The notes under the pieces: generated by a model | Database searches by the model: none | What the model saw: the letters and a program-made list of their open reading frames with translations, nothing else | What the model was told of the DNA's origin: nothing | Program-made: the position numbers and the translations under genes | Part shown: positions 8,390 through 34,767 of the stretch, piece after piece | Numbering within the stretch: position 1 is the first letter of the stretch | Layout of the letters: each line of letters starts with the position of its first letter | Source: Alphaproteobacteria bacterium | Lineage (GTDB): Bacteria > Pseudomonadota > Alphaproteobacteria > SHVP01 | Length of the DNA stretch: 41,324 nt | Assembly: GCA_029936875.1 (NCBI GenBank) | Contig: JAPYRS010000009.1 | Coordinates: 1 to 41,324, forward strand | Reading direction: 5' to 3'

Positions 8390-8456
8390 GCCTCACGTTT
8401 TTGCCCTTTGTTCTTCGCTGCGGGATCGCCTATTTTGGGGCACGAGGGAGGACAGA

Positions 8457-9212: not shown

Positions 9213-9227
9213 TCGCAGACTTCACCC

Positions 9228-9989
9228 GTGAAAAAACTAAAAAACAGAGTGGCTCTGGTTACGGGCGCTTCCAGCGGAATTGGCGAAGGCATTGCGATTG
9301 CCTTTGCCAAGGAAGGTGCCGACGTAATCGTGAACTACCCCGATAAGGCGGGCGAACGAAATATCTGGGACGTTGAAAAGGCAATCAAGAAGGCCGGGCG
9401 CCGGGCGCTGGTCGTTAAGGCTGACGTCTCGGACGAGCGCCAGGTCAAGCGTATGGTCAATAAGGCACTTAAAGAATTCGGCCGCATCGATATTCTGGTC
9501 AACAACGCAGGCATCGCTGATGCGGGCGCGCTCACCCATGAAATGTCAGCAGAAATGTGGGACCGGAATGTGGCGGTCAATCTTCGTAGTGTCTTCCTCT
9601 GTTCGCGCTACGTCCTGCCGCACATGTACAAGCAGAATTTCGGCAAGATCATCAATAACTCGACACAGTTCGCCTATACCGGATCGCCGTTGTTCGGGCA
9701 TTACACCGCGGCCAAAGCGGGCGTTATCGCCTTGACGCGGACGATGGCGATGGAAGTGGATGACGCCAATATCAACGTGAATTGCGTGGCACCAGGTGCA
9801 GTGATGACGCCGATGGTCGAAGACGTGCCATCCGGCAAGCCAAGTGGCGTCCTCGCCCGACAAACCAAACACCGGTTCGGCGATGTTGATAAGGATATTG
9901 TTCCAACTTTCGTATTCTTGGCGTCTGAAGAATCTCGATTTTATTCTGGTCAAACTTTGAGCCCCAATGGGGGCGATGTATTTCTTTAG
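9228..9989 (+). CDS. SDR family oxidoreductase (second of tandem pair; Ser-to-Thr in catalytic set)
   Basis: A 253-residue SDR with a GTG start; an upstream ribosome binding site is not obvious, which hints at translation coupled to the gene before it. T-G-A-S-S-G-I-G is at 12-19, N-N-A-G at 92-95 and Y159-T-A-A-K163 is intact. The residue 13 before the tyrosine, where catalytic serine belongs, is T146 (in N-N-S-T-Q-F), while the paralogue has S145. A neighbouring S145 is present, so the site could be shifted by one. The C-terminus S-P-N-G-G-D-V-F-L matches the paralogue. The two may form a hetero-oligomer or act on related substrates; no substrate can be read from sequence. Confidence 0.92.
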   Translation: MKKLKNRVALVTGASSGIGEGIAIAFAKEGADVIVNYPDKAGERNIWDVEKAIKKAGRRALVVKADVSDERQVKRMVNKALKEFGRIDILVNNAGIADAGALTHEMSAEMWDRNVAVNLRSVFLCSRYVLPHMYKQNFGKIINNSTQFAYTGSPLFGHYTAAKAGVIALTRTMAMEVDDANINVNCVAPGAVMTPMVEDVPSGKPSGVLARQTKHRFGDVDKDIVPTFVFLASEESRFYSGQTLSPNGGDVFL

Positions 9990-10001
9990 GGGGTCATTGA
10001 A

Positions 10002-10757
10002 ATGACAAAGCAAGTTGCGTTGGTCACGGGCGGCAGCATTGGAATCGGTCGGGCTTCCTGCATTGCGCTTGCCAATGCCGGATACAAAGTCGTGGTCACC
10101 GACGTTCTCGGCAAAGAGGGCGCCGAAGTCGTCGAGACAATTGTCGCGGCAGGCGGCGAAGCCCAATTTCAGGCGATGGACGTAACCGACACGGCCCACG
10201 TCGACGGGGTCATTCAGACCGTCGAAGAAAATTTCGGTCGTCTCGATGTGGTGGTTGCCAATGCCGGGATCGCAAAGAAAGTGCCGCTCTCTGAAATGAC
10301 CGACGAAGCGTGGGACATCACCCATGAGGTCGACCTGAAAGGCGTTATGCGGGTTGCGCGGGCCGCCGCACCGGGCATGCGTAAACGTAAGTCCGGCGCG
10401 TTCATTGCGCTCGCGTCTGTTGTTGGCACCGCCTATGGCTGGGACGAGCACGTCCAATATGCCGCAGCCAAGGGCGGCGTTGCCGGCCTCGTTCGCGGTT
10501 TGGCAATTGAGCTCGCCAAGGACCAGATTCGCGTGAACGCGATCGCACCGGGGTTCATTCGCTCGGCCCAAACGCTTGACCCGTACCATTCCGTCGGCGA
10601 AGAGGGGCTCGCGGCGGCGGCGCCGTCAGTACCGCTTGGGCGCATTGGCGACCCTGAGGATATTGCCGATGTTGTCGTGTTTCTCGCCTCGAACGCGGCC
10701 CGGTATATCACCGGGCAGGTCATTACTGTTGACGGCGGCTTGTTAGTCGCGCTTTAG
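10002..10757 (+). CDS. SDR family oxidoreductase (third gene of the SDR operon)
   Basis: A 251-residue SDR less related to the preceding two. T-G-G-S-I-G-I-G is at residues 9-16, A-N-A-G replaces the usual N-N-A-G near 86-89, and the active site is S139, Y153 and K157, with one extra residue between Ser and Tyr. The C-terminus I-T-V-D-G-G-L is the standard FabG-like ending. The start is ATG 10002, with GGGGG at 9989-9993 overlapping the preceding gene's stop, so it is the third member of a plus-strand operon. It converges on the DOPA dioxygenase-like gene. It is probably an NAD(P)-dependent alcohol or hydroxyacid dehydrogenase. Confidence 0.93.
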   Translation: MTKQVALVTGGSIGIGRASCIALANAGYKVVVTDVLGKEGAEVVETIVAAGGEAQFQAMDVTDTAHVDGVIQTVEENFGRLDVVVANAGIAKKVPLSEMTDEAWDITHEVDLKGVMRVARAAAPGMRKRKSGAFIALASVVGTAYGWDEHVQYAAAKGGVAGLVRGLAIELAKDQIRVNAIAPGFIRSAQTLDPYHSVGEEGLAAAAPSVPLGRIGDPEDIADVVVFLASNAARYITGQVITVDGGLLVAL

Positions 10758-10765
10758 GCATGGCC

Positions 10766-11128
10766 TTACTTTTGGGCGAACTGACGCAGGAACTCGATGT
10801 TGAGATCGAGTTTTGGGCCGAGCCAAATCGGAAAGTCCTCATGATCCGCGACGGCGTCATTCGATTCGGGGTGAATGAGGACACTTAGCCCGCGGTGATT
10901 GAGCATCAGCCACGGGACGATCTGATCAAAAATATCGGTTTCAAAAGCGACCTGATACATCGAGATCGGGTGCGGCCCGACTGGTTTTTCCCGCCACCGC
11001 CCCGTCACCACTGAATAACGTCGCCGTATTTCGTCGCGCACCCAAGAGGCATCGCTGCGCGTCGCTTCATCATAATAAATGTGAGCGTGGTAGCCGGTGA
11101 TTGAGCGCGGATCCAGATCGTTCATCAT
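10766..11128 (-). CDS. DOPA 4,5-dioxygenase family protein
   Basis: A 120-residue protein, full length for the DOPA_dioxygen family (PF08883; Amanita DODA and bacterial relatives). Its signature is present: Y13-H14-A-H16-I-Y-Y at the N-terminus, G-P-H53-P, then L-x-H86-P-E and D-H96 ahead of W-L-G. These histidines supply the non-haem iron site of an extradiol ring-cleaving enzyme. A TTG at 11137 extends the frame, but the ATG pair at 11128/11125 begins just at the upstream SDR's TGA and is preferred. It is the last gene of a minus-strand operon with an SDR and a CADD/PqqC-like protein. It would open a catechol-type ring in the cytoplasm; the actual substrate is not known. Confidence 0.85.
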   Translation of the reverse strand: MMNDLDPRSITGYHAHIYYDEATRSDASWVRDEIRRRYSVVTGRWREKPVGPHPISMYQVAFETDIFDQIVPWLMLNHRGLSVLIHPESNDAVADHEDFPIWLGPKLDLNIEFLRQFAQK

Positions 11129-11129
11129 T

Positions 11130-11873
11130 TCAGTCAATTACAAGGCCACCGGAGATATTGGTGATCGTGCCGGTAGTGGTGGCGGCATTATCTGAACATA
11201 GAAACAGGACCTGCGCCGCCACCTGTTCAGCGGTAGCGTACTCGCCGAGCGGAATGCGCTCTTTCAAAGCCGCGTGATCGTCCGGGGTTAACCGGTCGAG
11301 CATCGGCGTTTCAACGGGGCCCGGGGCGACACAATTGACCCGAATGCCGTCCGGCGCCCATTCATTCGAAAGATAGCGGGTGAGATTTATCAGGCCTGCC
11401 TTGGCCATTGCGTAGGGGGCGCCCGAAACCTGGCTGCCGCCCATCAATCCATTTGTCGATGACAGCAGGACGACCGACCCACGGCTCGCCTGCAGGTGCA
11501 TATGCGCTTCTCGGCAAAGCAAAAAGGCCGAGGTCAAATTAACCCGCATGATCCGGTCCCAGTCTTCGAGGCTGGTTTCTGCGAGGGTGCCTGCACCGAC
11601 AAGACCGATTGAATTGACGAGATAATCAATCCGGCCGAATCGTTCAATTGTTTTCGCGATTGCGCGCTTCGCACCGTCTTCGGTCGCACAATCTACGGCG
11701 ACGGGAAGGACGTCCGAATCACCTGCCGCGATTTCATCAAGTTTGTCGCGATTACGGCTTGCTGCCACAACGATTGCGCCGGCATCGCGAAATCCGCGGA
11801 CCACGGCTTCACCGATGCCGCCCGCTGCGCCCGCCACAGAGGCGACTTTGTCCGTGCCGTCCAGAAGCTGCAC
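11130..11873 (-). CDS. SDR family oxidoreductase in the CADD-like/DOPA dioxygenase operon
   Basis: A 247-residue SDR from GTG 11873, two bases after the stop of the upstream CADD-like gene; the ORF runs back into that gene, but those residues are shadow. The cofactor loop reads V-A-G-A-A-G-G-I-G (13-21), with Ala where nearly all SDRs have the Thr of T-G-x3-G-I-G, and N-S-I-G (87-90) replaces N-N-A-G. The active site keeps S138/S139, Y154 and K158. The C-terminus ends I-S-G-G-L-V-I-D. Tight spacing on both sides implies one mRNA with its neighbours and a step in the same pathway, for instance oxidising or reducing the substrate or product of the two oxygenases. Confidence 0.9.
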   Translation of the reverse strand: MQLLDGTDKVASVAGAAGGIGEAVVRGFRDAGAIVVAASRNRDKLDEIAAGDSDVLPVAVDCATEDGAKRAIAKTIERFGRIDYLVNSIGLVGAGTLAETSLEDWDRIMRVNLTSAFLLCREAHMHLQASRGSVVLLSSTNGLMGGSQVSGAPYAMAKAGLINLTRYLSNEWAPDGIRVNCVAPGPVETPMLDRLTPDDHAALKERIPLGEYATAEQVAAQVLFLCSDNAATTTGTITNISGGLVID

Positions 11874-11875
11874 CG

Positions 11876-12589
11876 CTATTCGGCAGCCTGATCCATTGCA
11901 AAGGAATTCCACAAATCGGAAAGCATTTGGTAGCGCATGCGTGCCGAACATTTGACCGTCGCGATGGCGCGCGTCTGAAGTTCAGGCGTCGTCGCATAGC
12001 GGTAGCAAATTTTCAGGCCGTGCGCTTCATGTTCGATATCGGCTTCGGTGTGAATATGGAAAAATTCGAGATCATCGTCACTGAAACCCATCGCCCGGCC
12101 GGCCTCGATATAGGCGGGATAGACCTGCGGCGTTTGCCCCTCCAGCGCGATCATGATGCCGGCAGCAGCTTCCGAAAGTTCGCGGACCGTCGCCAGTTCC
12201 CAGGTCCAGGCCCGCATCGCCATCGTACCCGGATAAACTTCGCCGCGAAGCCACGCCGTCTTGACCATTTCCGGGTCACGGCCGCACGCCTTGGCAAATT
12301 TCAGCAAGATATCCGGGTGCCGGCCGTTCTCGTCTTCCTCACCGGTCAGATTCTCAAGCACCAATTGGCGCGCGTCGAGGTCGGGCATGCGAATAAATAA
12401 CGCGGCAAACATCTGCGACACATTTTCAATGTAGTAATATTGTTGCGTCGCCCAATCGCCGAGTTGAGATCTTGTCAGGCGACCCTCTTTCCATGCCTTA
12501 CTAAAGGGATGGCCGCCGGAATGCGCTGGCGTCCGCGCCTCTCTTAGCGCTGCAACAAAGGCGTCTTCCGTCATCATTTCCTGGGCCAT
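11876..12589 (-). CDS. Haem-oxygenase-fold diiron-type oxidase (CADD/PqqC/TenA-like)
   Basis: A 237-residue all-helical protein starting at ATG 12589 behind GGAGAG (5-nt spacing). The pattern E84-x6-H91, E150, H180-x3-D184-x2-H187 fits the metal ligands I recall for Chlamydia CADD (E81, H88, E142, H174, D178, H181) with near-identical spacing, so it is likely a haem-oxygenase-like dimetal oxidase rather than a TenA hydrolase or cofactorless PqqC. N-L-T-G-E-E-D-E-N-G-R-H-P and H-I-H-T-E-A-D-I-E-H are the key segments. Known members activate O2 for oxidative fragmentation or N-oxygenation. It is the first gene of the operon with an SDR and a DOPA dioxygenase-like protein. No pqqABDE genes are present, so a PQQ role is unlikely. 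Confidence 0.85.
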   Translation of the reverse strand: MAQEMMTEDAFVAALREARTPAHSGGHPFSKAWKEGRLTRSQLGDWATQQYYYIENVSQMFAALFIRMPDLDARQLVLENLTGEEDENGRHPDILLKFAKACGRDPEMVKTAWLRGEVYPGTMAMRAWTWELATVRELSEAAAGIMIALEGQTPQVYPAYIEAGRAMGFSDDDLEFFHIHTEADIEHEAHGLKICYRYATTPELQTRAIATVKCSARMRYQMLSDLWNSFAMDQAAE

Positions 12590-12614
12590 CTTGTCTCTCC
12601 TCACAAATTCGTTG

Positions 12615-12626
12615 CCGAAATTTCGG
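12615..12626. promoter_or_regulatory. 12-bp palindrome upstream of the CADD-like gene
   Basis: CCGAAATTTCGG is a perfect 12-bp palindrome ending 26 bp before the ATG at 12589, in the expected promoter or 5'-leader position of the three-gene operon. It could be an operator. The regulator is not identifiable from the window. Confidence 0.45.
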
Positions 12627-12642
12627 TTGGAAATATGGCACG

Positions 12643-12659
12643 GGAGGGGTGTCCCCTCC
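12643..12659. terminator. Strong GC hairpin between racemase and CADD-like genes
   Basis: GGAGGGG at 12643-12649 and CCCCTCC at 12653-12659 form a perfect 7-bp stem with a 3-nt loop in the 184-bp gap separating two minus-strand genes. No T-tract follows on either strand, so it may attenuate, partly terminate or protect mRNA rather than be a full terminator. It probably marks the boundary between the ubiD-racemase unit and the CADD-like operon. Confidence 0.5.
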
Positions 12660-12773
12660 AATGTCATTTACACCGATCTGGGCAAATTTCAGGCAAATCG
12701 CTTGATTTCCGCAAGTTAGAAGCCCTCGCGGGCAGCTTTGGTGGGATCTCGACCGTCCAAGAGACCGCCGGGG

Positions 12774-13535
12774 CTATTTCTCGGTTGCTGCCGCTGCTTT
12801 CATCATCGCATGCACCATTTCCGGTTTTGGTGCGAGCGGCGTCGGATAGGCTCGGCGGCTGTGTGTCAGGCCAAGTCCCAATACAGTTTCAACCAGCTTG
12901 TAGGTAAGCGGGCCCGGATTGATCACCGGCACCGGTAGTTTATCGGCCAAGAATTCGGCCGCCTGATGCATCGTTGTTGATCCGAGGCAAATGACGTCGG
13001 CGCCTTTTTCAATAGCGCGCTCTGCGGCCGCCAGCATCTTCGGGAAGACAGAATCCTCTTTGCCGTCGAGAAGGTTGGCAAAGTCGGGCGGTGAACCAAA
13101 TGATTCGACTGCGGCGCACTGTGCACTGAGCCCATATTCGGCGACCGCTTTTTGATAACGAACAATCGCCGGGTCCCATTGCGCGAGCACGCCGAACTTG
13201 CCGCCCAACATGAGTGCAAACAACATCGACGCCCGGCCCGGTGAAATGACCGGGATGTCCAGCATCGCGCGCAAGGGGGCGAGGCCAGAATCACTCATCG
13301 TGTCGATACAGACGGCGTCGTAACCATCGGCCTCGGCGCTCATGCCGGCTTCAAAGATCGCCATTTCCATCAGCGCCCAATCGTGTGCGCTCATGAAACT
13401 TGTTGGCCCGGCGGTGACAGGCCGAAAGTCAAATTCAATATCCGGCCCGAGCTTGACGGCCTTGGTCTGCGATTGACGATTTGCGATCCCTTTTTCATCA
13501 AGGGCGAACGGAACAATGACAAGTGCTTTGGCCAT
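12774..13535 (-). CDS. Aspartate/glutamate/hydantoin racemase family protein (second of tandem pair)
   Basis: A 253-residue member of the Asp/Glu racemase superfamily (PF01177), closest in layout to hydantoin racemase. Two catalytic-type cysteines are present: C76 in V-C-I-D-T-M-S-D-S-G and C183 in I-C-L-G-S-T-T-M-H, near the positions of the C76/C181 pair I recall for HyuE-type enzymes. The family also includes maleate isomerase and arylmalonate decarboxylase, so racemisation, cis-trans isomerisation or decarboxylation are all possible. The start is ATG 13535 behind AAGGAAA. It lies 35 bp after the paralogue at 13571-14344 in the minus-strand unit headed by the UbiD-type gene. Its natural substrate is unknown. 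Confidence 0.9.
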   Translation of the reverse strand: MAKALVIVPFALDEKGIANRQSQTKAVKLGPDIEFDFRPVTAGPTSFMSAHDWALMEMAIFEAGMSAEADGYDAVCIDTMSDSGLAPLRAMLDIPVISPGRASMLFALMLGGKFGVLAQWDPAIVRYQKAVAEYGLSAQCAAVESFGSPPDFANLLDGKEDSVFPKMLAAAERAIEKGADVICLGSTTMHQAAEFLADKLPVPVINPGPLTYKLVETVLGLGLTHSRRAYPTPLAPKPEMVHAMMKAAAATEK

Positions 13536-13570
13536 CTTGGTTTCCTTAAATTGGAATGACTTGGTCAGAA

Positions 13571-14344
13571 CTAGTTTTTTGAATTTTCAGAACTGGCAGC
13601 AGCGTCAAGCATGACGTGATACATGTCGCTCTTGTCGACAATCGGTTTTGGATAGGCTGTGCGGCTATGCGTCAGGCCGAGGCCCAACACCGTTTCGGCA
13701 ATCTTGTAGGAAAGTGGGCCGGGGTTGATGATCGGCACCGGCAGCCTTTCTTGCAAATAGGCATGACTCTCGTGCATCGTCGTTGAGCCGAGGCAGATGA
13801 CGTCGGCGCCGTCTTCTTCGATTGCCTTCATGGCAGCCGCTTCAAGCAGCGGAAGCACAGAGTCTTCCTTGCCCGCGAGCAGATTTTTATTGTCAGGTTT
13901 CACACCGATGCTGCGGATCGATGCACATTTATCGCCGAGGTTCAGTTCATAGAGGGTTTTTTGGTATAGCCCCTTCCAGCCGTCCCACATCGTGAGGATT
14001 GAAAACCTGTTGCCGAGCATCAGCGCCGTCAACATCGAGAGGCGGCCCGGACCGAACACCGGAATGTCGAGCACCGATCGCAGACCGCTGACACCAGAAT
14101 CGCTCATCGTGTCGATGCAAACGGCGCTGTATCCGTCGCGTTCGGCGTTGAGGCCAGCCTCCATCATGCCGAGGTCGGCCAGAATGTAATCGTGGTGGCT
14201 GACGTAATTACTGGGTGCGGCCTTGACCGGGTGATAGTGAAATTCAATATCCGGCCCGAATTGAGCGGCCTTCTGTTGCGCTTCCCGCTGGGCGAGATTT
14301 TTTTCGTTTAGCGGAAACGGAACGAGGACGAGAACTTTATGCAC
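13571..14344 (-). CDS. Aspartate/glutamate/hydantoin racemase family protein (first of tandem pair)
   Basis: A 257-residue paralogue of the next gene. Both cysteine motifs, V-C-I-D-T-M-S-D-S-G and I-C-L-G-S-T-T-M-H, and the end block L-G-L-G-L-T-H-S-R are kept. GTG 14344 is preferred because M-H-K-V-L-V-L-V-P-F then aligns residue for residue with the paralogue's M-A-K-A-L-V-I-V-P-F; a TTG at 14353 is the alternative. Both copies keep a full catalytic pair, so neither looks decayed. Retention of two intact neighbours suggests either a heteromer or two successive substrates. It lies 55 bp after the zinc-ribbon gene. Confidence 0.9.
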   Translation of the reverse strand: MHKVLVLVPFPLNEKNLAQREAQQKAAQFGPDIEFHYHPVKAAPSNYVSHHDYILADLGMMEAGLNAERDGYSAVCIDTMSDSGVSGLRSVLDIPVFGPGRLSMLTALMLGNRFSILTMWDGWKGLYQKTLYELNLGDKCASIRSIGVKPDNKNLLAGKEDSVLPLLEAAAMKAIEEDGADVICLGSTTMHESHAYLQERLPVPIINPGPLSYKIAETVLGLGLTHSRTAYPKPIVDKSDMYHVMLDAAASSENSKN

Positions 14345-14399
14345 GGCATCCAATCCAGTTTTTGAGAGTTAAAGCGACGTCGCTCACAGGGTCCCGGCT

Positions 14400-14603
14400 T
14401 TACGGGAGAATAATTTTTCGCGCCGCCTCAGGTCGAAATTCAGCATGGCATTTTGGGCAATGAAGATCGATGTCATTCATTGCGATCAGGTCCGGCGTCG
14501 AATGAAACCAGTTGCCACAATCGCCACACTCGATCCACGCGGTGTTGCCACGCTTTTCGCCAAGCGGCGAATGGCTAGGCAGGCGGATGATATTGTCGGA
14601 CAC
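14400..14603 (-). CDS. Small four-cysteine zinc-ribbon protein coupled to the UbiD-type gene
   Basis: A 67-residue protein with a GTG start 12 nt after the UbiD stop. C26-G-D-C29 and C49-P-K-C52 form a C-x2-C...C-x2-C zinc ribbon, with a basic C-terminus. It has no signal or membrane segment. Some prFMN-dependent hydroxyarylic acid decarboxylases carry a small cysteine-rich third subunit (BsdD/VdcD, about 75 residues) beside the UbiD-type subunit. This protein occupies the equivalent place, but I cannot show homology by eye. It could be an accessory subunit of the decarboxylase. Short GTG ORFs can be spurious, but the spacing and the two CxxC pairs argue that it is real. Confidence 0.75.
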   Translation of the reverse strand: MSDNIIRLPSHSPLGEKRGNTAWIECGDCGNWFHSTPDLIAMNDIDLHCPKCHAEFRPEAARKIILP

Positions 14604-14615
14604 TTTTCTGAAAAC

Positions 14616-16031
14616 CTATTGTGTCGGCCAAGCGGACTTGTCGATTTTTTTGAGAACAGCATTGGCCGCATCAAGGATCGGCTGATCGACGCCGCTTCGC
14701 GGTGGCACCGGCCTCGGCGCACCCGCAACCTCGGAAGGCGCAAGCGTTGCGTCAATTCCAATCTTTGAAACAGTCTTGGCACCGCGCGCGAGCCCGGGAT
14801 CCATTAGTGAGCCGGAAAGCCCGCTGACAATAATCGAGTCGCGCTCCCACATCACGCGGGTCGCAAGCGCCCACATCATTTCGCTGTCATCAAAAATATC
14901 GATGTCATCGTCGACCGCGATGGTCGCTTTTACCCGGCGATACCCGTTTGCAACCATCAGCGCGTCTCTCGCTTCACCGGGGTTTGGATTTTCCAACTGC
15001 AAATAGGCGTGAAACCGTCGTCCCGACACCGGCACATGAACCCGGCGGAGCGCAGGTACCACCGATTTCACCATGCCGTAGATTTTCCCCTCCATCGCCA
15101 TGTTGTCCGGCACCAGCATGTCGGGAAGGCCGGAACCGTAATCGTGATAAATGGCGTTCGCGCGTCTGGTAATGCAGGTGATTTCACAAACCGGGGCGGC
15201 AACCTGCGCACCCATGTACCCGGTGTATTCGCCGAATGGGCCGTCCGCCTCCAACACATTTGGCGGGACGAACCCCTCAACGACGATCTCCGCGTCGGCC
15301 GGAACCATTACGCTCTCGCCGTGGGTGATTGACGGCACCATGCGCAAGGGCTCTCCCATTAACCCGCCGCAGGCGCGCCAGTGGCTTTCGGGGTAACCGA
15401 TTTTCGCTTGTGTGCCCATCAAGACGAGCGGGTGATGGCCGATCCAGAATGCGACAGGGCAGGCTTCACCGCGCGCCCAATATTTGGCGACGTTCCGGGC
15501 ATTATGAGAAACCGCATAGGGGAAATAGGACATGCGACGCGGTTCTTTGACCCAGCACCGCTGGATCGCGGTGTTGTCGATCCCGGTTTCGGGATCAGAT
15601 GTGGTCGCGTGAGCCGCAGTCAAATAGGGTCCCGGGTCGAGCGTGTGTTGGGTTAGTAGCGGCAGTGAAAAAAGATTTGCCGCATCACCTTCCTCGACGA
15701 CTTCCTGAACCGGGGCGTCTTCTCTGGTGACAATTTCCGGGTCGATCGGCGACGAAGTGCGCGCAGCGTAGGCGGCCGCGAAATCACGATGATCTTCCAC
15801 ACCAAGTGCGCGTGCCGTGATTTCCCGGCTCGCCGTCAAGTTTGTTACAACCGGCATTGCGCTAATCGAGCCGTCGCTTAATTTCGGCTGGTCGATTTGC
15901 AGGATCGGATAACGCCGCTCGGCGGATAATCCGTACTGGAGCGCCGTAATTTCCTGATGAACCGCAACCGGGCCTTCGGGCCGCCAGACATTGGCCGCTT
16001 CTTTGGCGAGAAATTTTCGAAGGTCAATCAT
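14616..16031 (-). CDS. UbiD family prFMN-dependent decarboxylase
   Basis: A 471-residue UbiD-fold protein of normal length. It carries the family block A-E-I-V-V-E-G-F-V-P-P, then E-x-x-G-P-F-G-E-Y-T-G-Y, the D-P-E-T-G region near residue 145, and the acidic D-D-D-I-D-I-F-D segment near 370 typical of catalytic and prFMN/metal-binding sites. UbiD enzymes use prenylated FMN for reversible (de)carboxylation of aromatic, heteroaromatic or alpha,beta-unsaturated acids. No UbiX prenyltransferase is in the window, so the cofactor must come from elsewhere. It heads the minus-strand unit with the zinc ribbon and two racemases, and is divergent from the amidohydrolase operon. Together with those genes, a catabolic role is likelier than ubiquinone synthesis. 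Confidence 0.93.
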   Translation of the reverse strand: MIDLRKFLAKEAANVWRPEGPVAVHQEITALQYGLSAERRYPILQIDQPKLSDGSISAMPVVTNLTASREITARALGVEDHRDFAAAYAARTSSPIDPEIVTREDAPVQEVVEEGDAANLFSLPLLTQHTLDPGPYLTAAHATTSDPETGIDNTAIQRCWVKEPRRMSYFPYAVSHNARNVAKYWARGEACPVAFWIGHHPLVLMGTQAKIGYPESHWRACGGLMGEPLRMVPSITHGESVMVPADAEIVVEGFVPPNVLEADGPFGEYTGYMGAQVAAPVCEITCITRRANAIYHDYGSGLPDMLVPDNMAMEGKIYGMVKSVVPALRRVHVPVSGRRFHAYLQLENPNPGEARDALMVANGYRRVKATIAVDDDIDIFDDSEMMWALATRVMWERDSIIVSGLSGSLMDPGLARGAKTVSKIGIDATLAPSEVAGAPRPVPPRSGVDQPILDAANAVLKKIDKSAWPTQ

Positions 16032-16160
16032 GGGTCAAAGCGGCGTTTTCTATTGCTGTTTTTCGATCGCTCTATTGTTGTCGCTGCTTTGTTCGCTGGC
16101 AAGCAACCTATTAAGACGAAGCCACAGGGCCACATTGATTGCTGGCTATTGTCTCCTCCC

Positions 16161-16179
16161 ATACGAGCCGATATCGTAT
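16161..16179. promoter_or_regulatory. Inverted repeat in the divergent ubiD/amidohydrolase promoter region
   Basis: ATACGA at 16161-16166 and TCGTAT at 16174-16179 form a perfect 6-bp inverted repeat with a 7-bp spacer inside the 201-bp gap between divergent operons, 54 bp before the amidohydrolase ATG. The size suits a dimeric one-component regulator such as a GntR or TetR protein. No regulator gene is adjacent. The same gap holds an AT-rich stretch just downstream (TTCAAATTAAATTT). Confidence 0.5.
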
Positions 16180-16232
16180 TTCAAATTAAATTTCCCGGGA
16201 GCAACCGGGCCGATTATTGGGGAGTAACGCGT

Positions 16233-17117
16233 ATGGCCGGTGCCATCGACATCGTCTGCAATCTGTATACACCACGGGAAGTCCGGCTCGGCCAGGACGG
16301 GATCGACAATACCTTCAAAAAACAAATCCGCATGAGCCCACAAATGCGGAAGGGCGTTACGATTTCGCAGTATCTAAAGAAAATGGACAGGGCAGGGATC
16401 GAACGGTCACTGCTGATCGCGGTTCGGGCCGGTGACCTGAACGTCAAGGGCTCGTTCGCGATCCCCTACAAACGTGTTTATGACATTTGCCAAAAGTACC
16501 CGGATCGGTTTTCCGGCCTTGCCGGCGTTGATCCGACGCTGGGTGTCCAGCAACTCTATGACCTCGACGAAGCGGTCTACGACTATGGTTTTGTCGGCGC
16601 GCATTTCTATCCGCATTGGTTTGCCATGTCGCCGGATGCGCCGCAGATCTATCCGACTTACGCGCGCTGCGTCGAACTCGACATCCCGATCATGATGCAG
16701 GTCGGTCATAACCTCGTTTATCAAAAGGACCGGCGGCTGCCGTCTGTTGCCCGGCCGATCACACTCGATCAGGTCGCGATCGATTTTCCTGACCTCAAGT
16801 TGCTCGGCATTCATCTCGGTGTGCCGTGGACCGACGAGATGATTTCCATGGCCTGGAAGCACAAGAACATTTACATCGGCGGTGACGCCTACGCACCGAA
16901 ACATTGGCCGAAACAAATGGTGCACTACGCCAACACCTACGGTCAGGACAAATTTCTGTTTGGCACGGATTGGCCGGTGATCGATCCGGAGCGGGCCGTG
17001 CGCGAAGTCGAGGAGTTGGGGTTCAGGCCGGGGCCAAAAGAAAAAATCATGCGCGAAAACGCGCTCCGAATATTCACTAAGATTCCGCGCAAAGCTCGCC
17101 GGAAAAAGAAGAAATAG
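16233..17117 (+). CDS. Amidohydrolase family 2 (ACMSD-like fold) protein lacking the N-terminal HxH
   Basis: A 294-residue TIM-barrel protein from ATG 16233, behind GGGGAG at 16219-16224; the longer frame from 15957 is antisense to ubiD. Ligand-like residues are visible at H159 (Q-V-G-H), H194 (G-I-H-L-G-V-P-W) and D246 (F-G-T-D-W-P). The N-terminal metal motif normally found as I-D-x-H-x-H reads I5-D6-I-V8-C-N10, so both histidines are missing. That suggests a changed metal site or a metal-free hydrolase. Relatives decarboxylate or hydrolyse aromatic and cyclic acids. The C-terminus ends in a run of Lys/Arg (R-K-A-R-R-K-K-K-K). It is the first gene of a four-gene plus-strand operon divergent from ubiD. 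Confidence 0.87.
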   Translation: MAGAIDIVCNLYTPREVRLGQDGIDNTFKKQIRMSPQMRKGVTISQYLKKMDRAGIERSLLIAVRAGDLNVKGSFAIPYKRVYDICQKYPDRFSGLAGVDPTLGVQQLYDLDEAVYDYGFVGAHFYPHWFAMSPDAPQIYPTYARCVELDIPIMMQVGHNLVYQKDRRLPSVARPITLDQVAIDFPDLKLLGIHLGVPWTDEMISMAWKHKNIYIGGDAYAPKHWPKQMVHYANTYGQDKFLFGTDWPVIDPERAVREVEELGFRPGPKEKIMRENALRIFTKIPRKARRKKKK

Positions 17118-17127
17118 GGAGTCCAAC

Positions 17128-17751
17128 ATGGATCTTGGCAAAGAAGGTACGGCATTGCTGGTCGTCGATATGCAAAACGGATTTTGCGATAGCGACGGTT
17201 CAATGGCCAAACTCGGTTTCGATGTTGATCGGTTGAAGGAGGCAATCCCGGGATGTGAGCGTCTTGTCGCTGCTGCACGCGATGCCGGCGTTCCGGTATT
17301 TTTTACGCAGTATGTCTATCAGGCGGATTTTGCCGACGCCGGTTTCGTCGTAAACGAAATCTTTCCGGCGATAAAAGATGTTGATATGTGCGTCGACGGG
17401 ACTTGGGATGCAGAAATTCTCGATTCTCTGAAGCCACGCGAAAAAGACATCATCATCAAGAAAAATCGACCGAGCGCTTTTTATTCGACGATGCTGGATT
17501 CGAAACTTCGTTCGATGAAAATCGATAATCTGGTGATTTGCGGCGTAACCACAAACATTTGCGTCGAGACAACTGCGCGAGATGCCTCGCAACGTGACTA
17601 CCGGACATTTGTGGTGTCCGATGCAACCGCTGAGGTTGAGCAGGACCGTTACGAGGTCGCGCTCAAGTCTTTGGGGTATTTGTTCGCGCGTGTGATGACG
17701 GTTAGCGAAGTGTTCGATTCCTGGAATGTTGAACTGAATAATGTCGCCTGA
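17128..17751 (+). CDS. Isochorismatase-like cysteine hydrolase
   Basis: A 207-residue protein with the complete Asp-Lys-Cys triad of the cysteine hydrolase branch: D14 in L-V-V-D-M-Q, K112 in K-N-R-P-S-A-F, and C145 in G-V-T-T-N-I-C-V-E-T-T-A-R-D. The latter block is most like N-carbamoyl/ureidoacrylate hydrolases (RutB type) and maleamate or nicotinamide amidases, all of which hydrolyse C-N bonds, rather than true isochorismatase. ATG 17128 has GGGAG 6-10 nt upstream and a 10-nt gap from the amidohydrolase gene. Its end overlaps the CoA ligase start by 11 bp, implying co-translation. It would probably release ammonia or carbamate from a pathway intermediate. Confidence 0.92.
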   Translation: MDLGKEGTALLVVDMQNGFCDSDGSMAKLGFDVDRLKEAIPGCERLVAAARDAGVPVFFTQYVYQADFADAGFVVNEIFPAIKDVDMCVDGTWDAEILDSLKPREKDIIIKKNRPSAFYSTMLDSKLRSMKIDNLVICGVTTNICVETTARDASQRDYRTFVVSDATAEVEQDRYEVALKSLGYLFARVMTVSEVFDSWNVELNNVA

Positions 17752-19321
17752 AAGCCATAGTCCTGAAAGCCACGGTAACGGCATGACGCCTCGCCCCGAT
17801 ACTTACGTCCCGCTAACAATCGCGAGCGGCGTCATCACGTCGCGGCGCCGTACGCCAAACAAAATCGCGCTCGGCCTCGGCGAGCGGCAGCTCACCTACG
17901 CCCAACTTGTCGATCGGTTTAATCAGGTTTCAACCGCGGCGATGAACGGTGCGGGCCTGGTCAAAGGCGATCACGTCGCGCTGTTTGCCCCCAATTGCCT
18001 GGAATTTATCGAAATCGTTTGCGGAATTGCGTCGGTGGGGATGGCGTCTGCGATGATTCCGCCGAGCGCCACGCCGCGGGAACTTGCCTACATCTGTAAT
18101 AACAGTCAGTCGCGGGTTCTCTTCGTTCACGATTCGCTGGAAGAAGTTGCCCGCGCGGCGGACCTCCAGACGATCGAAAAGATTATCGTGATCGGCAAGG
18201 ATTACGATGACTGGCGGGATAAGGCGAAACCCCTAGCGCCGAATGTGGCGATGGAGGAATGGGACGTGTTTTGCATTCCCTATACGTCCGGGACGACAGG
18301 CAGCCCCAAAGGATGTCTCTTGTCGCACCGTTCGCGGGTCAGTGCATTTCAGGTCATGGCCTCGGAATTTGGCTGTTATTCCCCGGATGACCGGGCGCTC
18401 GGGATTGCGCCGCTGTTTCATGGTGCCGGCTTCGCCTTTGCACTGGCGCCGTTATATTTTGGCGGCTACTGCGAAATACTGCCGCGCTACGATGCCGAAG
18501 AAGTGCTTCGGTTGGTCACGGAATTGAATCTCACCAACATGTTTTTGGTGCCGACTCATTTTCACGCCATGTTCGCGTTGGGTGAAAAAACGTTGGCCAA
18601 ATACAAAACCGTTTCTCTAACCGTGATCCAGTCCAATGCGGCGCCGCTTCCGCAGGCGACCAAAGAAAAAATTGTTGGCTATTTTGGCGAGGGGCTGCTT
18701 AACGAAACCTACGGATCAACTGAGGGCGGCATGATCACCAACCTTCGTCCGGCCGATCAATTGCGAAAAGAACGCTGCGTCGGGCTTCCTTATGCAAACA
18801 CCCAGGTGCGCCTATTGGGCGAAGACGGAAATGACGTGGCGAATGGCGAGGTCGGAGAAATCTATACGCTGACGCCGACTCATTTTAATGGCTATTGGCA
18901 GATGCCGGAGGCGACCGCCAAGAGTTTCAAGGGTCAGTGGCTGACTGTCGGTGACATGGGTCGGTTCGACGAGGAGGGGTTCCTCTATCTGGTCGACCGC
19001 AAAAAAGACATGATCATCAGCGGCGGCGTGAATGTATTTCCGCGTGAGATCGAAGAAATCCTCCACCATCACCCGACGGTACTGGAAGTTGGTGTCATCG
19101 GCGTGGACGACGATTATTGGGGTGAGGCGGTAAAGGCGGTCGTCGTATTTCGGCAGGGGCAGAGCGCCTCTGAGGAAGAGTTGCTGGATTTCTGCAGGAA
19201 AGACCTCGCCAAATACAAACTGCCCAAGACATTTGCGTTTATCGACAAGCTGCCGCGAAATGCTGGCGGAAAAATATTGAAAACCGAACTGCGCGCGATG
19301 GCCTTGGCCGGGAAAATCTAA
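17741..19321 (+). CDS. AMP-forming acyl-CoA synthetase/ligase
   Basis: A 526-residue ANL-superfamily ligase. The P-loop Y-T-S-G-T-T-G-S-P-K-G begins near residue 181; Y-G-S-T-E-G, the D-R-K-K-D-M-I-I-S-G-G hinge and the terminal G-G-K-I-L-K with the catalytic Lys are all present. It activates a carboxylic acid to its CoA thioester using ATP. Chain-length or aromatic preference cannot be read reliably. ATG 17741 overlaps the upstream gene; ATG 17783 (M-T-P-R-P-D) is a plausible alternative because the codons between are a short tandem repeat (S-P-E-S-H twice). Its place in the operon suggests it activates the final acid of the pathway for CoA-dependent breakdown. Confidence 0.93.
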   Translation: MSPESHSPESHGNGMTPRPDTYVPLTIASGVITSRRRTPNKIALGLGERQLTYAQLVDRFNQVSTAAMNGAGLVKGDHVALFAPNCLEFIEIVCGIASVGMASAMIPPSATPRELAYICNNSQSRVLFVHDSLEEVARAADLQTIEKIIVIGKDYDDWRDKAKPLAPNVAMEEWDVFCIPYTSGTTGSPKGCLLSHRSRVSAFQVMASEFGCYSPDDRALGIAPLFHGAGFAFALAPLYFGGYCEILPRYDAEEVLRLVTELNLTNMFLVPTHFHAMFALGEKTLAKYKTVSLTVIQSNAAPLPQATKEKIVGYFGEGLLNETYGSTEGGMITNLRPADQLRKERCVGLPYANTQVRLLGEDGNDVANGEVGEIYTLTPTHFNGYWQMPEATAKSFKGQWLTVGDMGRFDEEGFLYLVDRKKDMIISGGVNVFPREIEEILHHHPTVLEVGVIGVDDDYWGEAVKAVVVFRQGQSASEEELLDFCRKDLAKYKLPKTFAFIDKLPRNAGGKILKTELRAMALAGKI

Positions 19322-19335
19322 ACCGAAAGGTTGCG

Positions 19336-20490
19336 ATGATGAGCGGTCCCTATCCCCACGCGATGATGCCGCAGACGCAGCACGACGAGCGTGCGCGAAT
19401 TGATTTCGTGGAAGAATTCAAGAAACACCTGGCGCTTGAAATCATGCCCGGCAATCGCACCGTTTATGAGCGGACAGTGGTGCCGAGCGCGACTTCCACG
19501 TTGGGCCGACCGCTTAAGTCCCGTCATGAAGTGCGCGAACACATGAATCATAATCCGTATTTTCGGATGTTCGGGTCGCTGCAGCGCACCAGCCAGGAAA
19601 TGCTTTGGGACGGCGTCGCTGAATCCGTCGTCCGCCAGTCCGGGAAACTTGATGCGGTGGCCAACCGCGCTGCCCAAGTTCAAAAGTCAGGTTCGCTCAA
19701 ACTTGATCCGAAATTGAAGCCGCCTGCTTACGTCACGGCTGTGGATATTCACTGCATGCCGGGCGGGTACGCGGGTGAGGCGATGGGCCAGACGGCGGCT
19801 GGGGCGATATACGATCTCGGCGTTTATCACTATGCGATGTCGAGCCTTGGGCCTCGCAATAGCGGCATGGGCGAGCGCATGATTGGGACGCTGAAGGAAA
19901 AATTCTCCGGCCTCAATCCGCGGCGAATTCTCGATCTTGGGTGTACAGTGGGTAATGCGACGCTGCCCTACGTCGAGGCCTTTCCGGACGCGGAAATTCA
20001 CGCGGTTGATGTCTCTGCACCAGTGCTTCGTTACGCAAACGCGCGGGCGCAGTCGTTTGGGGCACCGATTCATTTTTCACAGCAGAACGCGGAACAGACA
20101 AACTTCCCGGACGGGCATTTTGATCTGGTGCTGTCGCACATTCTTTTGCACGAAACCTCGTCATCCGCGATTGGGCGGATATTGCGTGAATGCCATCGTC
20201 TGTTGGCACCGGGCGGCGTAACCGCACATGCGGAACTCGGGTTTTTTGAAGGTCTCAATCCGTACGACGCCTTTATTCTCGACTACGACACCTACAACAA
20301 TAACGAGCCGTTCTGGACGACGATGCGGGAAATGAACCCGGTCGACCTGATGCGCGATGCGGGCTTCGACAAAAACGAGATATTTCTTGCGACTGTACCG
20401 CGCGATCCTGGCGGCAAGACCGTCTATTCAGACAATGTCGCGGACGCCAACGGCCGCGGAACCTGGCTGGTGATCGGCGCCCAAAAGTAA
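19336..20490 (+). CDS. Class I SAM-dependent methyltransferase with an N-terminal extension
   Basis: A 384-residue protein. The C-terminal half (about 170-384) is a Rossmann methyltransferase: I-L-D-L-G-C-T-V-G-N near residue 195 is motif I (usual G-x-G altered to C-T-V-G), followed by A-E-I-H-A-V-D-V-S, F-D-L-V-L-S-H-I-L-L-H-E and a UbiE-like L-L-A-P-G-G. The first 170 residues match no domain I know; they include a Tyr/Met-rich start and H-E-V-R-E-H-M-N-H-N. AAAGG-like bases at 19324-19329 precede ATG 19336. It is the last gene of the amidohydrolase operon and converges on iorB. The acceptor could be an O, N or carboxylate in a pathway intermediate. Sure of the domain, not of the role. Confidence 0.88.
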   Translation: MMSGPYPHAMMPQTQHDERARIDFVEEFKKHLALEIMPGNRTVYERTVVPSATSTLGRPLKSRHEVREHMNHNPYFRMFGSLQRTSQEMLWDGVAESVVRQSGKLDAVANRAAQVQKSGSLKLDPKLKPPAYVTAVDIHCMPGGYAGEAMGQTAAGAIYDLGVYHYAMSSLGPRNSGMGERMIGTLKEKFSGLNPRRILDLGCTVGNATLPYVEAFPDAEIHAVDVSAPVLRYANARAQSFGAPIHFSQQNAEQTNFPDGHFDLVLSHILLHETSSSAIGRILRECHRLLAPGGVTAHAELGFFEGLNPYDAFILDYDTYNNNEPFWTTMREMNPVDLMRDAGFDKNEIFLATVPRDPGGKTVYSDNVADANGRGTWLVIGAQK

Positions 20491-20539: not shown

Positions 20540-22063
20540 TTACGTTGAAATAGTTTCGAGATACCGGGCGAGCGTATTGCCGTTTTCGTCGGCGAGCGCT
20601 GCCTCGCCGGCACCGGCGATTTGCGCGGCGGCGGTCCCAGCGTCAACGTCTGATTTCAAACCCTTGGCGATGACGGAATCAAATATCAGCGTGAGGTTTC
20701 CTTTGCCGCGCGCATGGATGTCGCCGTAACCCTTTACCAAATTTGCGACTCGGCTGATTTCGAGGCCGAGTTCAGGCGCACGGCTGGTTCCCGCAATGAT
20801 CGCGGTGAGCCAGCGTTCAATCCAGGCCTGCTCGTGCTGAAATCGAAAGGTGCGCGGGCGCCACGGCCGCAAAATCGAAAGCACCCGCATCAACAGAAAT
20901 CCGCTCACTGATGTCGTCTTGATGTGGAGGCCAATGTTGCGTTTTTTATGGGTCGGCGTGCGTTCCGCCCGGCGCATCAATCGGGCACCGATTGATCGCG
21001 GCATGATCGAGGCGATCTCTTCGAGCCCCGGTTTCAAATAATCGATGACATGCACCGTCTCGCCCGGCTCCGCTTTGACGTCAGACCGGATCTCTTCAAA
21101 CCGTTCCCGTGACGTCTTGATTTGGGCGACGCGGATGACGTCTTCATAGATCATCCAAACCGCGAGGCGCTTGGCCGCATCAGCCGTCACCGGGTAATCC
21201 GAATTCGAATTGCCCTCTGCCGCCAAGACTTTGCTTAGGCGCTCGAGATAGCGGCTTGCGTAACCGCGATTCTGGTAGTGGCGGGTTTGTCTTACGCCCT
21301 CCTGCAGCACCTCATGGAGTGCTTCCGGGAATTTGTCCGTGATGTTTGCGTCGAGGGAGTCCCGATCCGCCGCCTTCGCATCTTTTGATGAAGGCGATGA
21401 GGGGGAGGCGAGACCGCCGGCGTCCTCAATCAACGCGATGCCCCTGTTAAATCCTTCAGTACTGGATTTAACGCCGACGCCGGCCTCTTCAATCGCTCCC
21501 ACGCAACTCACGCGGTCGACCGGATAAACGCCGGATCCGGCAATCATGCCAAAAATAATCGCATTCATCGGCGCGCCGGTTTTTAAGGATTCCTGTTCGA
21601 GGTCGAGCAAAAATGTCTGTCGCGAAAGTTCATGGGCCGCCGATTCCGTGCGGCTCGTATCAAACCGGCCGTCACCCATGGCTTGGCGCTCGTCGATCGT
21701 CAAAACGCGGTGCGTCGAACCGATCAGCACGGTCCGGTCTTTCGAGACGTAGCCCGATTGAATCATTCGCCCGACTTCAATCATTTCGGACGCAACCACA
21801 AGATCCAATTCGCCGGCGACCGGGTAGAGAGAAAACACCGGGTGCTTACCTTCAGGCGCGGGCGCGCTCAGCATTTCGACAAAATAGGTGGTGGCGCCGG
21901 TGCGCTGCGATGTGCCCGGAAGCGAGGTGCCCTGCACCGGCAGGCCTGCTCGATTGGCCGCGCTCACAAGCCAGGTCGCCAGTAATCCGCCGCCTTCGCC
22001 GCCTAGCGCACCGATCAAAAGCCGGACCACGCGTCCGGTGGTCGTATCGTTGCGTTCGCTCAT
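20540..22063 (-). CDS. iorB: Indolepyruvate ferredoxin oxidoreductase subunit beta (extended, IorB-type)
   Basis: A 507-residue protein. Residues about 10-200 form the pyruvate:ferredoxin oxidoreductase gamma-like domain, beginning L-L-I-G-A-L-G-G-E-G-G-G and including P-G-T-S-Q-R-T-G-A-T-T-Y. The remaining 300 residues are the DUF6537-type extension typical of proteobacterial IorB; archaeal IorB is only about 200. ATG 22063 overlaps the iorA stop as ATGA, and an earlier in-frame ATG at 22132 would lie inside iorA. With IorA it converts aryl-pyruvates (indole-, phenyl-, 4-hydroxyphenylpyruvate) plus CoA to aryl-acetyl-CoA, passing electrons to ferredoxin. It is convergent with the methyltransferase gene. 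Confidence 0.9.
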   Translation of the reverse strand: MSERNDTTTGRVVRLLIGALGGEGGGLLATWLVSAANRAGLPVQGTSLPGTSQRTGATTYFVEMLSAPAPEGKHPVFSLYPVAGELDLVVASEMIEVGRMIQSGYVSKDRTVLIGSTHRVLTIDERQAMGDGRFDTSRTESAAHELSRQTFLLDLEQESLKTGAPMNAIIFGMIAGSGVYPVDRVSCVGAIEEAGVGVKSSTEGFNRGIALIEDAGGLASPSSPSSKDAKAADRDSLDANITDKFPEALHEVLQEGVRQTRHYQNRGYASRYLERLSKVLAAEGNSNSDYPVTADAAKRLAVWMIYEDVIRVAQIKTSRERFEEIRSDVKAEPGETVHVIDYLKPGLEEIASIMPRSIGARLMRRAERTPTHKKRNIGLHIKTTSVSGFLLMRVLSILRPWRPRTFRFQHEQAWIERWLTAIIAGTSRAPELGLEISRVANLVKGYGDIHARGKGNLTLIFDSVIAKGLKSDVDAGTAAAQIAGAGEAALADENGNTLARYLETIST

Positions 22064-24213: not shown

Positions 24214-24389
24214 CTCACCCTCCAAGTTCAACGAACTTGCATACTAGCGCAATGCTCACGCGATTTGGATGGTTTCCGGTATGCTTGTTGGCAAAATGCC
24301 CCCATGCGATCATGGCCTATCGCGGATTGGATCGGCGTGGAGCTGAATAATCGGGCTGGACAACAAGGCCCAAGGTGCGGAGCGAAGTA

Positions 24390-25976
24390 ATGGTTGAGAA
24401 TACTGCGACGGCGGGTGCCGTCGATACGTTGCGGCAAATTATTGGCAACGACAACGTGTTGACCGACGCGGAGAACCTGAGATTCTTCTCGAGCGATGTG
24501 AATAGAGAGGCCGAACCGGCCCGCGTTGTGGTCCAACCGGCCAACAGCCAAGAACTTTCTGAGGCCGTGCGCACCGCAGTTAAAGCGGATCTGGCGGTAA
24601 TCCCACGCGGCGGCGGCATGTCCTACACCGATGGATATATTCCCAAGTACCCCGATTCGATGATCGTCGATTTGCGGCGGATAAACCGAATTGTCGAAAT
24701 CAACACCGAAGACATGTTCGTTACCGTCGAGCCCGGTTGCACCTGGAAGGAATTGTTCGAGGCCCTGACCCAGAAAGGGGTTCGGACCCCATACTTTGGC
24801 CCGCTTTCCGGCATGTATGCGACCGTCGGCGGTGCGCTTTCCCAGAACAGTCTATTTTTTGGCTCAGGTCTCTACGGTTCTGTCGCCGATTCGGTTTTGG
24901 GCCTTCGAATTGTGCTGGTTGACGGTAGCGAGATTACGACCGGCTCTGCGGCGACGCCCTACAATCCGTCGCCTTTCTTTCGGGGCTACGGGCCTGATCT
25001 AACCGGATTGTTTCTCGGCGATACCGGCGCCCTCGGATTTAAGGTCGAGGCAACGCTCAAACTCATTCCGCTTCCCAGCGATACGCAGTTTGCGTCATTT
25101 GCTTACGATTCGTTTGAAGGCGTTTGCACCGCGATGTCGGAAGTCTCGCGGCGCGGCCTTGCGGCCGAATGTTTTGGTTTTGATCCTTATCTACAGGGGC
25201 AACGTCTTCAACGCGCTGGTCTGGTCAGTGATCTGAAATCGCTTGCCGGCGTTGCGCGGTCCGGAAAAAATCTTGTGAATGGTCTAACCGAAGCCGCAAA
25301 GGTTGCCGTCGCCGGCCGCCGCTATATGGACGATGTTAAATATTCGATGCATGTCGTCGTTGAGGGCCGGAACGAACAAGAGACATCAAGCCGGTTGACC
25401 GAAATCAGATCATTTGCGACCGAGGGCGGCGAGGAAATTAAGAACAGCCTGCCCAAGGTGATGCGGGGCACGCCCTTTGTCGCCCCCAACAGTATGCTCG
25501 GGCCGGACGGTGAGCGTTGGGTGCCAATTCATGGGCTGGTTCCCCACACCCGCATTATTCCTATGATTCAGGCGATTCACGACTTCTTTGAGGCGAACGA
25601 AGACAAGATTGAAAAATTTGGAATCGAGTGGGGTTACCTGCTGTCGACCTGTGGCCACCAGGCCTTCTTGGTTGAGCCGATGTTCTTTTGGAAGGATGCC
25701 CGCCACCCGTACCACGACCGGGTACTGGAAGAAAATTACCTGTCGAAACTGAAGACATTTCCCGAAAATAAAGCGGCCCGTGCTGCAGTGGCGGAGATGC
25801 GATCGGGTCTTGCCACTCTTTTTATGGAGAATGGCGCTGTTCATTTTCAAATTGGCCGCACTTATCGATACAAAGACGGTCGCGATCCGGAAACCTTTAA
25901 GCTTTTGGAAACTATAAAAAACGAGTTAGACCCGAGTGGTCGAATGAATCCGGGTTCGCTTGGTCTGGGACGTTAA
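24390..25976 (+). CDS. FAD-linked oxidase (GlcD/VAO family)
   Basis: A 528-residue flavoprotein. The N-terminal PCMH-type FAD-binding domain shows V-I-P-R-G-G-G-M-S-Y-T, V-T-V-E-P-G-C-T-W and Y-A-T-V-G-G-A-L-S-Q-N-S. The C-terminal FAD-oxidase_C domain ends L-D-P-S-G-R-M-N-P-G-S-L-G. ATG 24390 has GGAG at 24379-24382; a GTG at 24375 is the alternative. Family members oxidise D-2-hydroxy acids, phenols or alkyl ethers and pass electrons to cytochromes, ETF or O2. No cysteine-rich partner (GlcF-like) is adjacent. Facing iorAB, a role in making aryl-pyruvates from aryl-lactates is a reasonable guess but unproven. Confidence 0.9.
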   Translation: MVENTATAGAVDTLRQIIGNDNVLTDAENLRFFSSDVNREAEPARVVVQPANSQELSEAVRTAVKADLAVIPRGGGMSYTDGYIPKYPDSMIVDLRRINRIVEINTEDMFVTVEPGCTWKELFEALTQKGVRTPYFGPLSGMYATVGGALSQNSLFFGSGLYGSVADSVLGLRIVLVDGSEITTGSAATPYNPSPFFRGYGPDLTGLFLGDTGALGFKVEATLKLIPLPSDTQFASFAYDSFEGVCTAMSEVSRRGLAAECFGFDPYLQGQRLQRAGLVSDLKSLAGVARSGKNLVNGLTEAAKVAVAGRRYMDDVKYSMHVVVEGRNEQETSSRLTEIRSFATEGGEEIKNSLPKVMRGTPFVAPNSMLGPDGERWVPIHGLVPHTRIIPMIQAIHDFFEANEDKIEKFGIEWGYLLSTCGHQAFLVEPMFFWKDARHPYHDRVLEENYLSKLKTFPENKAARAAVAEMRSGLATLFMENGAVHFQIGRTYRYKDGRDPETFKLLETIKNELDPSGRMNPGSLGLGR

Positions 25977-34754: not shown

Positions 34755-34767
34755 GTAATTCGATTTC

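Follow-up and report, generated by a model that had tools for sequence, protein, structure and literature searches.

A conserved divergent gene island around a UbiD-family decarboxylase as a candidate catabolic super-cluster in one alphaproteobacterial family

A divergent island of eleven genes

We analysed a stretch of 41,324 nucleotides (contig JAPYRS010000009.1 of assembly GCA_029936875.1; henceforth the window), which is one whole contig of a 2.7 Mb alphaproteobacterial genome in 223 contigs, and within it an island of eleven genes at 10766-20490, arranged in two divergent arms around a gene for a UbiD-family decarboxylase, the type that uses prenylated flavin mononucleotide (prFMN). We consider it an even prospect that this island is a family-specific catabolic super-cluster joining three modules which are separate elsewhere: the decarboxylase with a zinc ribbon, a heme-oxygenase-like diiron protein (HDO) and a short-chain dehydrogenase (SDR) (module 1); an amidohydrolase-fold protein, an isochorismatase-type hydrolase and a coenzyme A (CoA) ligase, together with a flavin adenine dinucleotide (FAD)-linked oxidase (module 2); and a pair of racemase-fold proteins (module 3). 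Gene content, conservation, module boundaries and the states of metal ligands and catalytic residues are demonstrated below. An earlier note on the window had described the eleven genes as a divergent island and as a candidate new pathway for an aromatic or N-heteroaromatic acid. All eleven genes were verified at 10766-20490 on the strands first described, with a family match for each of the longer ones. The proposal of a new pathway was supported as well: no named pathway covered the island in the literature searched, where looking for UbiD in the context of HDO, hydantoin racemase, isochorismatase or Opp/GntR genes brought up no description of the island or of module 1.

Conservation of the island within the family

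The family sample comprised nine genomes besides the source, from six genera, and the neighbourhoods compared extended to at most 20 kb. UbiD orthologues of 63-75% identity were found in 9/9 of these genomes; 50 genomes representing other families had none at E<=1e-60. Since UbiD is this similar across nine other family genomes and its neighbours are kept with it, the grouping cannot be put down to chance. Specifically, the amidohydrolase gene lay divergent from UbiD in 9/9 family genomes whose contig covers it (window included; G001 was left out of this count, as its contig ends just beyond UbiD), and the arrangement was kept across genera despite differing outer flanks. The view of the island as a coherent, co-inherited unit of catabolic type with a prFMN-type decarboxylase was thus borne out. 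In the long family loci the racemase-fold pair, HDO and SDR come after UbiD, with the exception of G006, in which the island is split into two halves lying far apart: one contig carries UbiD, the zinc ribbon and the plus arm, and another carries a glutathione S-transferase (GST) gene followed by both racemase-fold genes, HDO, SDR, the DOPA dioxygenase-like gene, further SDRs and SBP5. Both halves have been retained, and G006 also has a second amidohydrolase-ligase-hydrolase-FAD oxidase copy adjoining an Opp transporter (L163).

The conserved unit is broader than the eleven genes. The FAD-linked oxidase gene (24375..25976, plus strand; PF01565/PF02913; a member of the glycolate/lactate/p-cresol-oxidase superfamily, assigned by Pfam, solved relatives and synteny) lies beyond the CoA ligase in 8/8 relatives covering that side. 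On the other side (8373-10757), three more SDR genes on the plus strand (8373-9212, 9228-9989 and 10002-10757; identified by synteny and, for the first and third, by Pfam) are partly conserved, with counterparts beyond the minus arm in several relatives. The AMP-dependent acyl/aryl-CoA ligase (17741..19321, plus strand; PF00501/PF13193) is 63-65% identical within the family, and the isochorismatase gene, single in the window, is present in two or three tandem copies in relatives. More variable are an accessory gene for a DOPA 4,5-dioxygenase-family protein of 123 aa (DOPA_dioxygen; 10766..11137, minus strand; PF08883, E=1e-32), which occurs in G003, G005, G002 and G006 and was not detected in G004 or G009, and the methyltransferase gene, found within the family only in the window and G005.

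Spacing within the arms is short or overlapping, as in operons: 12 bp separate UbiD from the zinc ribbon, and the hydrolase/ligase and SDR/dioxygenase pairs overlap by 11 bp and 8 bp, respectively. A 386-aa open reading frame (ORF) beginning at 15957 is too long for the amidohydrolase gene, judging by the start position of relatives; that start corresponds to 16233 in the window, and the divergent gap is therefore 201 bp (16032..16232). An alignment of this gap from nine family members has four invariant columns and showed no clear operator, while a promoter scan gave results at chance level. No RNA family was found in the window.

Separate occurrence of the modules outside the family

Scanning a UbiD alignment against 84,980 species genomes yielded 68 loci, eight of which were family members. 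Genes in the loci were grouped by conservation-scored clustering, neighbours such as GntR-UTRA regulators, aldehyde dehydrogenases (ALDH) and UbiX were named by Pfam and solved-structure searches, and modules were counted over the 45 non-family loci with enough flank. We found that the set of UbiD, zinc ribbon, HDO and SDR recurs in alpha- and gammaproteobacteria together with an ALDH and a GntR regulator. Near UbiD, HDO was present in 40 of the 45 loci, SDR in 39, ALDH in 38, GntR in 35, a methyltransferase in 18 and UbiX in 12, while amidohydrolase, isochorismatase, ligase and racemase-fold genes were present in none. Solute-binding proteins and ATP-binding cassette (ABC) transporters also surround module 1 elsewhere; in the cultured Thermaurantiacus tibetensis (L081) and in G209 (L183), for example, it is accompanied by ALDH and Opp-type ABC genes.

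Of 289 genomes belonging to the class, 17 had a member of the amidohydrolase family and only 5 a UbiD of this clade, and in the stretches fetched around them the outside amidohydrolase genes mostly adjoin a CoA ligase or C-N hydrolases, without UbiD. The exception is a 48%-identical amidohydrolase homologue near UbiD in L056, a proximity that is perhaps independent in origin. Racemase-fold genes elsewhere were either paired, with tripartite ATP-independent periplasmic (TRAP) transporter, fumarylacetoacetate (FAA) hydrolase and RraA-like genes, or single, with hydantoinase A/B. The C-N hydrolases seen elsewhere in the vicinity of plus-arm or racemase-fold genes comprise hydantoinase A/B, amidase and a polysaccharide-deacetylase-type protein. 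The possibility that the arms occur independently in relatives, named in the earlier note as a refutation of its proposal, therefore had a divided outcome: within the family, UbiD and the amidohydrolase were together wherever both could be seen, and outside it the arms were separate except in L056. This separation points to the island as a family-specific fusion of separable modules. In a phylogenetic tree the family UbiDs formed one clade (support 100/99) nested among module-1 UbiDs without the plus arm, which fits a single joining event. A plasmid search returned one weak UbiD relative and nothing more.

Other arrangements were also seen. In Rhodospirillaceae metagenome-assembled genomes (MAGs; L033, L035, L038, L041), up to eight tandem SDR paralogues lie upstream of UbiD, beside a UbiX-UbiD-zinc ribbon set, and the combination of repeated SDRs with GSTs (L065) is reminiscent of the stereospecific catabolism of ethers or alcohols. 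A divergent UbiD branch (L083, L084, L089, L082) is followed by two tandem DUF1838 genes, and HDO or SDR was not detected there. A stretch of G146 without UbiD (L155:4941-16238) holds hydantoinase A/B, isochorismatase, an acyl-CoA dehydrogenase-like gene, a methyltransferase (48%), racemase-fold A (52%) and the FAD oxidase (46%). Two MAGs, L066 and L078, are titled Klebsiella pneumoniae; their UbiD groups with gammaproteobacterial MAGs, and the record names look wrong.

Predicted proteins of module 1

The UbiD-family decarboxylase (471 aa; 14616..16031, minus strand) has all three UbiD domains above cut-off (N, rift and C; PF20695, PF01977 and PF20696). Residues R158, D263 and E268 stand for the E-R-E network, i.e., the arginine and the second acid are present and the first glutamate is an aspartate. 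This R-D-E state was found in 69/70 loci, the remaining locus being cut off; at the first acid position, Glu is found in UbiD paralogues from the same genome (L002, L004). The nearest solved relative is PDB 6h6v (E=4e-60 over ~370 residues), which we take to be the furan-2,5-dicarboxylate decarboxylase HmfF. It differs in having Glu where the island UbiD clade has Asp263, and the island genes include no furoyl-CoA dehydrogenase-type genes. For UbiX, which is needed for prFMN, the source genome has two PF02441 genes, neither of them beside the island; one (146.8 bits) is near two other UbiD genes.

The adjoining 67-aa zinc ribbon (14400..14603, minus strand) has two CxxC knuckles 19 residues apart, whose cysteines (C25, C28, C48 and C51) are invariant in 14 homologues, and its structure was predicted with a pLDDT (predicted local distance difference test) score of 91. 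A two-CxxC motif was found just downstream of UbiD in 39/66 loci with enough flank, a count that misses some, e.g., L025, where the zinc ribbon sits further off. In the vanillate/4-hydroxybenzoate decarboxylase VdcCD, VdcC needs the allosteric subunit VdcD, a protein of <10 kDa with two CxxC zinc knuckles, and the island resembles that system in having a UbiD gene beside a similarly sized two-CxxC protein with similar spacing (PMC8379154), which makes the zinc ribbon a putative VdcD-like partner of UbiD. However, the island UbiD scored 192.1 bits against the VdcC cut-off of 650, has Asp as its first E-R-E acid and shares its operon with HDO and SDR.

The HDO gene (11876..12667, minus strand; Haem_oxygenas_2/TENA, PF14518/PF03070) probably has its true start ~78 bp inside the ORF. 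Its product carries the complete set of three histidines and three carboxylates (3H/3C) that is described for HDOs (PMC13108848): Glu110/111, His117, Glu176, His206, Asp210 and His213 are invariant in nine homologues and aligned with CADD. Profile matches were to CADD/4-aminobenzoate synthase. Although the protein shares its fold family and full ligand set with this self-sacrificing synthase and other 3H/3C HDOs, it scored 90 bits against a TIGR04305 cut-off of 200, and the genes that share its operon encode a decarboxylase and an SDR. The start of the SDR ORF (11130..11951, minus strand; PF13561/PF00106) is uncertain.

Predicted proteins of modules 2 and 3

Racemase-fold protein A (13571..14353) and its paralogue B (12774..13535), both on the minus strand, belong to the Asp/Glu/hydantoin racemase family (PF01177, E=4e-29 and 2e-26). 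They share a fold family with the allantoin/hydantoin racemases (HpxA, PDB 3qvj; 5lfd), with matches of ~50 bits. By contrast, at the positions of the catalytic cysteines of allantoin racemase, Cys79/Cys184 (PMC12661438), each of the 13 family copies has Thr and Ser (Ser/Ser in one), as do almost all close homologues outside the family; residue states in protein B were read from a residue-by-residue alignment with allantoin racemase. Given the absence of both cysteines across this subfamily, its members probably carry out a different chemistry. A 28%-identical paralogue in L148 retains the first Cys. In total, the source genome yielded 6 matches of racemase-fold type, 3 of amidohydrolase-fold type and 5 that are UbiD-like (contigs C60, C88, C133, C4, C78, C91, C96, C222). 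Among them is a second racemase-fold pair (L159), which is accompanied by genes for a TRAP transporter, an RraA-like protein and an FAA hydrolase.

In the amidohydrolase-fold protein (Amidohydro_2; 16233..17117, plus strand), the PF04909 match begins only at profile position 67, and the sequence after the first strand reads IDIVCN in place of HxH. Homologues outside the family have IDIVVN or IDILCN at this site, meaning that a conserved IDxxxN replaces HxH both inside and outside the family. The best solved match is the uncharacterised BB4693 (3irs); the protein thus has PF04909 in common with BB4693 and with the group of 2-amino-3-carboxymuconate-6-semialdehyde decarboxylase (ACMSD) and 4-oxalomesaconate hydratase, but lacks the HxH metal-binding pair. 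Among outside homologues flagged with an in-frame TGA/TAG, for which we considered selenocysteine, we rejected it in L142 and L138, where the stop is the gene end.

The C-N hydrolase, an isochorismatase-superfamily cysteine hydrolase (17128..17751, plus strand; PF00857), has all motifs of the Asp-Lys-Cys triad (VVDMQNGF, IIKKNRPSAF and GVTTNICVETTARDA). These D-K-C motifs are shared with the RutB ureidoacrylate and biuret amidohydrolases, which are of the same isochorismatase type and which the protein resembles by family model and solved relatives; the island hydrolase, however, scored 125 bits against the RutB cut-off of 378 and has no pyrimidine-utilisation partner genes. The last gene of the plus arm encodes an S-adenosylmethionine-dependent methyltransferase with a helical N-terminal domain (19336..20490, plus strand; Pfam, model and fold search), for which the fold search gave no match more specific than generic methyltransferases, many of which belong to natural-product pathways.

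In the window, the methyltransferase is separated from the FAD oxidase by an indolepyruvate oxidoreductase-type pair (20540-24231; IorB with DUF6537, and IorA), not seen there in relatives. Further along lies a DMSO-reductase-type molybdenum operon (31165-35733) with catalytic, 4Fe-4S and DmsC anchor subunits.

A proposed route and its alternatives

Because the modules are co-inherited, we infer that they act in one pathway, for which a reaction order and a substrate class can be suggested. The relatives of UbiD (6h6v) and its VdcD-like partner favour an aromatic or heteroaromatic acid, and the recurrence of C-N hydrolases favours a nitrogen atom in the substrate, so that the class first proposed remains a reasonable one; the substrate may be a nitrogen heterocycle or an amide. 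In module 1, UbiD with prFMN would strip CO2 from the acid while the zinc ribbon holds it active, as VdcD does for VdcC; HDO would then oxidise the decarboxylated product with O2 at its two-metal centre, and SDR would dehydrogenate the oxygenated intermediate. The racemase-fold pair of module 3, with Thr/Ser for Cys, may provide a non-cysteine isomerase or lyase step between modules 1 and 2. Module 2 would cleave a C-N bond, hydrolyse or hydrate a side chain or ring-opened fragment and, last, activate the freed acid with CoA. Taken as a whole, the boldest version of this scheme is speculative, and we give it a rather low probability: UbiD, activated by the zinc ribbon, would be coupled to the diiron HDO in a catabolic route that is new and depends on O2, and a Cys-free Thr/Ser racemase-fold branch would perform a new isomerase/lyase step that feeds C-N cleavage and CoA activation.

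Several observations weigh against a super-cluster with one pathway. With HxH missing from the amidohydrolase and Cys from the racemase-fold proteins, the chemistry of these proteins is not predictable, and the substrate can be named only as a class. Homology between the zinc ribbon and VdcD could not be detected (neither an NCBIfam match nor a significant fold-search match) and is therefore not claimed. The family loci lack ALDH and GntR, which elsewhere accompany module 1 constantly. Finally, DsbD, redoxin and Alph_Pro_TM genes past the island are also common to the window and the g5 genomes, so part of the neighbourhood is general synteny, and adjacency there is by itself weak proof.

This synteny running past the island in some members also suits an alternative that we regard as possible though doubtful, namely that two or three independent catabolic modules without a common substrate became neighbours by chance in a catabolic hot spot of the family. 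Each module is indeed found alone elsewhere, and the racemase-fold pair occurs again in the family, there beside genes for a TRAP transporter, an FAA hydrolase and an RraA-like protein. Yet chance proximity sits poorly with the divergent UbiD/amidohydrolase pair in every testable family genome across genera with differing outer flanks, with the survival of both halves of the split G006 cluster and with the absence of the plus arm from the 45 other UbiD loci.

The island could also be biosynthetic or modifying, with HDO, methyltransferase, CoA ligase and UbiD tailoring, e.g., a small molecule: HDOs are described in natural product biosynthesis (PMC13108848), the methyltransferase resembles enzymes of such pathways, and a methyltransferase gene recurs near UbiD in the 18 loci counted above. 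We find this improbable, given that module 1 elsewhere lies amid ALDH, GntR, solute-binding proteins and ABC transporters, that the other modules have genes for isochorismatase, amidase, hydantoinase and FAA hydrolase around them, and that no assembly-line enzyme was seen.

The analogy first drawn with picolinate/nicotinate pathways, i.e., an N-heteroaromatic route with ACMSD-type decarboxylase, amidase and maleate-isomerase-type steps, did not survive. At the level of folds the likeness is genuine, as the island has members of the Amidohydro_2, isochorismatase and Asp/Glu racemase families, and C-N hydrolases recur around the plus-arm module. However, HxH is absent from the ACMSD-fold protein and both catalytic cysteines are absent from both racemase-fold proteins, so both kinds of protein lack the hallmark of the enzymes to which they had been likened. 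The absence of 2,5-dihydroxypyridine dioxygenase and hydroxylases, which had already been remarked on, was confirmed, as no island gene matched that dioxygenase family or a Mo hydroxylase family. We therefore rejected this route as very unlikely.

Hardly credible, too, is a role for HDO as an oxidative maturase of the UbiD prFMN cofactor beside the zinc-ribbon subunit instead of a pathway enzyme: HDO does accompany the UbiD clade in 40/45 other loci, and UbiD enzymes require oxidative maturation and in some cases helper proteins (PMC10865409), but the known helpers LpdD and VdcD are unrelated small proteins (PMC10865409, PMC8379154), and SDR and ALDH accompany UbiD just as constantly, which points to a substrate pathway.

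Returning to the catabolic super-cluster, the family that carries the full island consists of aquatic bacteria, and the UbiD-zinc ribbon-HDO-SDR module occurs widely among genomes of alpha- and gammaproteobacteria, of which many come from lakes and seas. As one carrier of module 1, Thermaurantiacus tibetensis, is in culture, the question of the substrate is directly testable. A catabolic HDO beside a prFMN decarboxylase, if true, would widen the range of uses known for both families.

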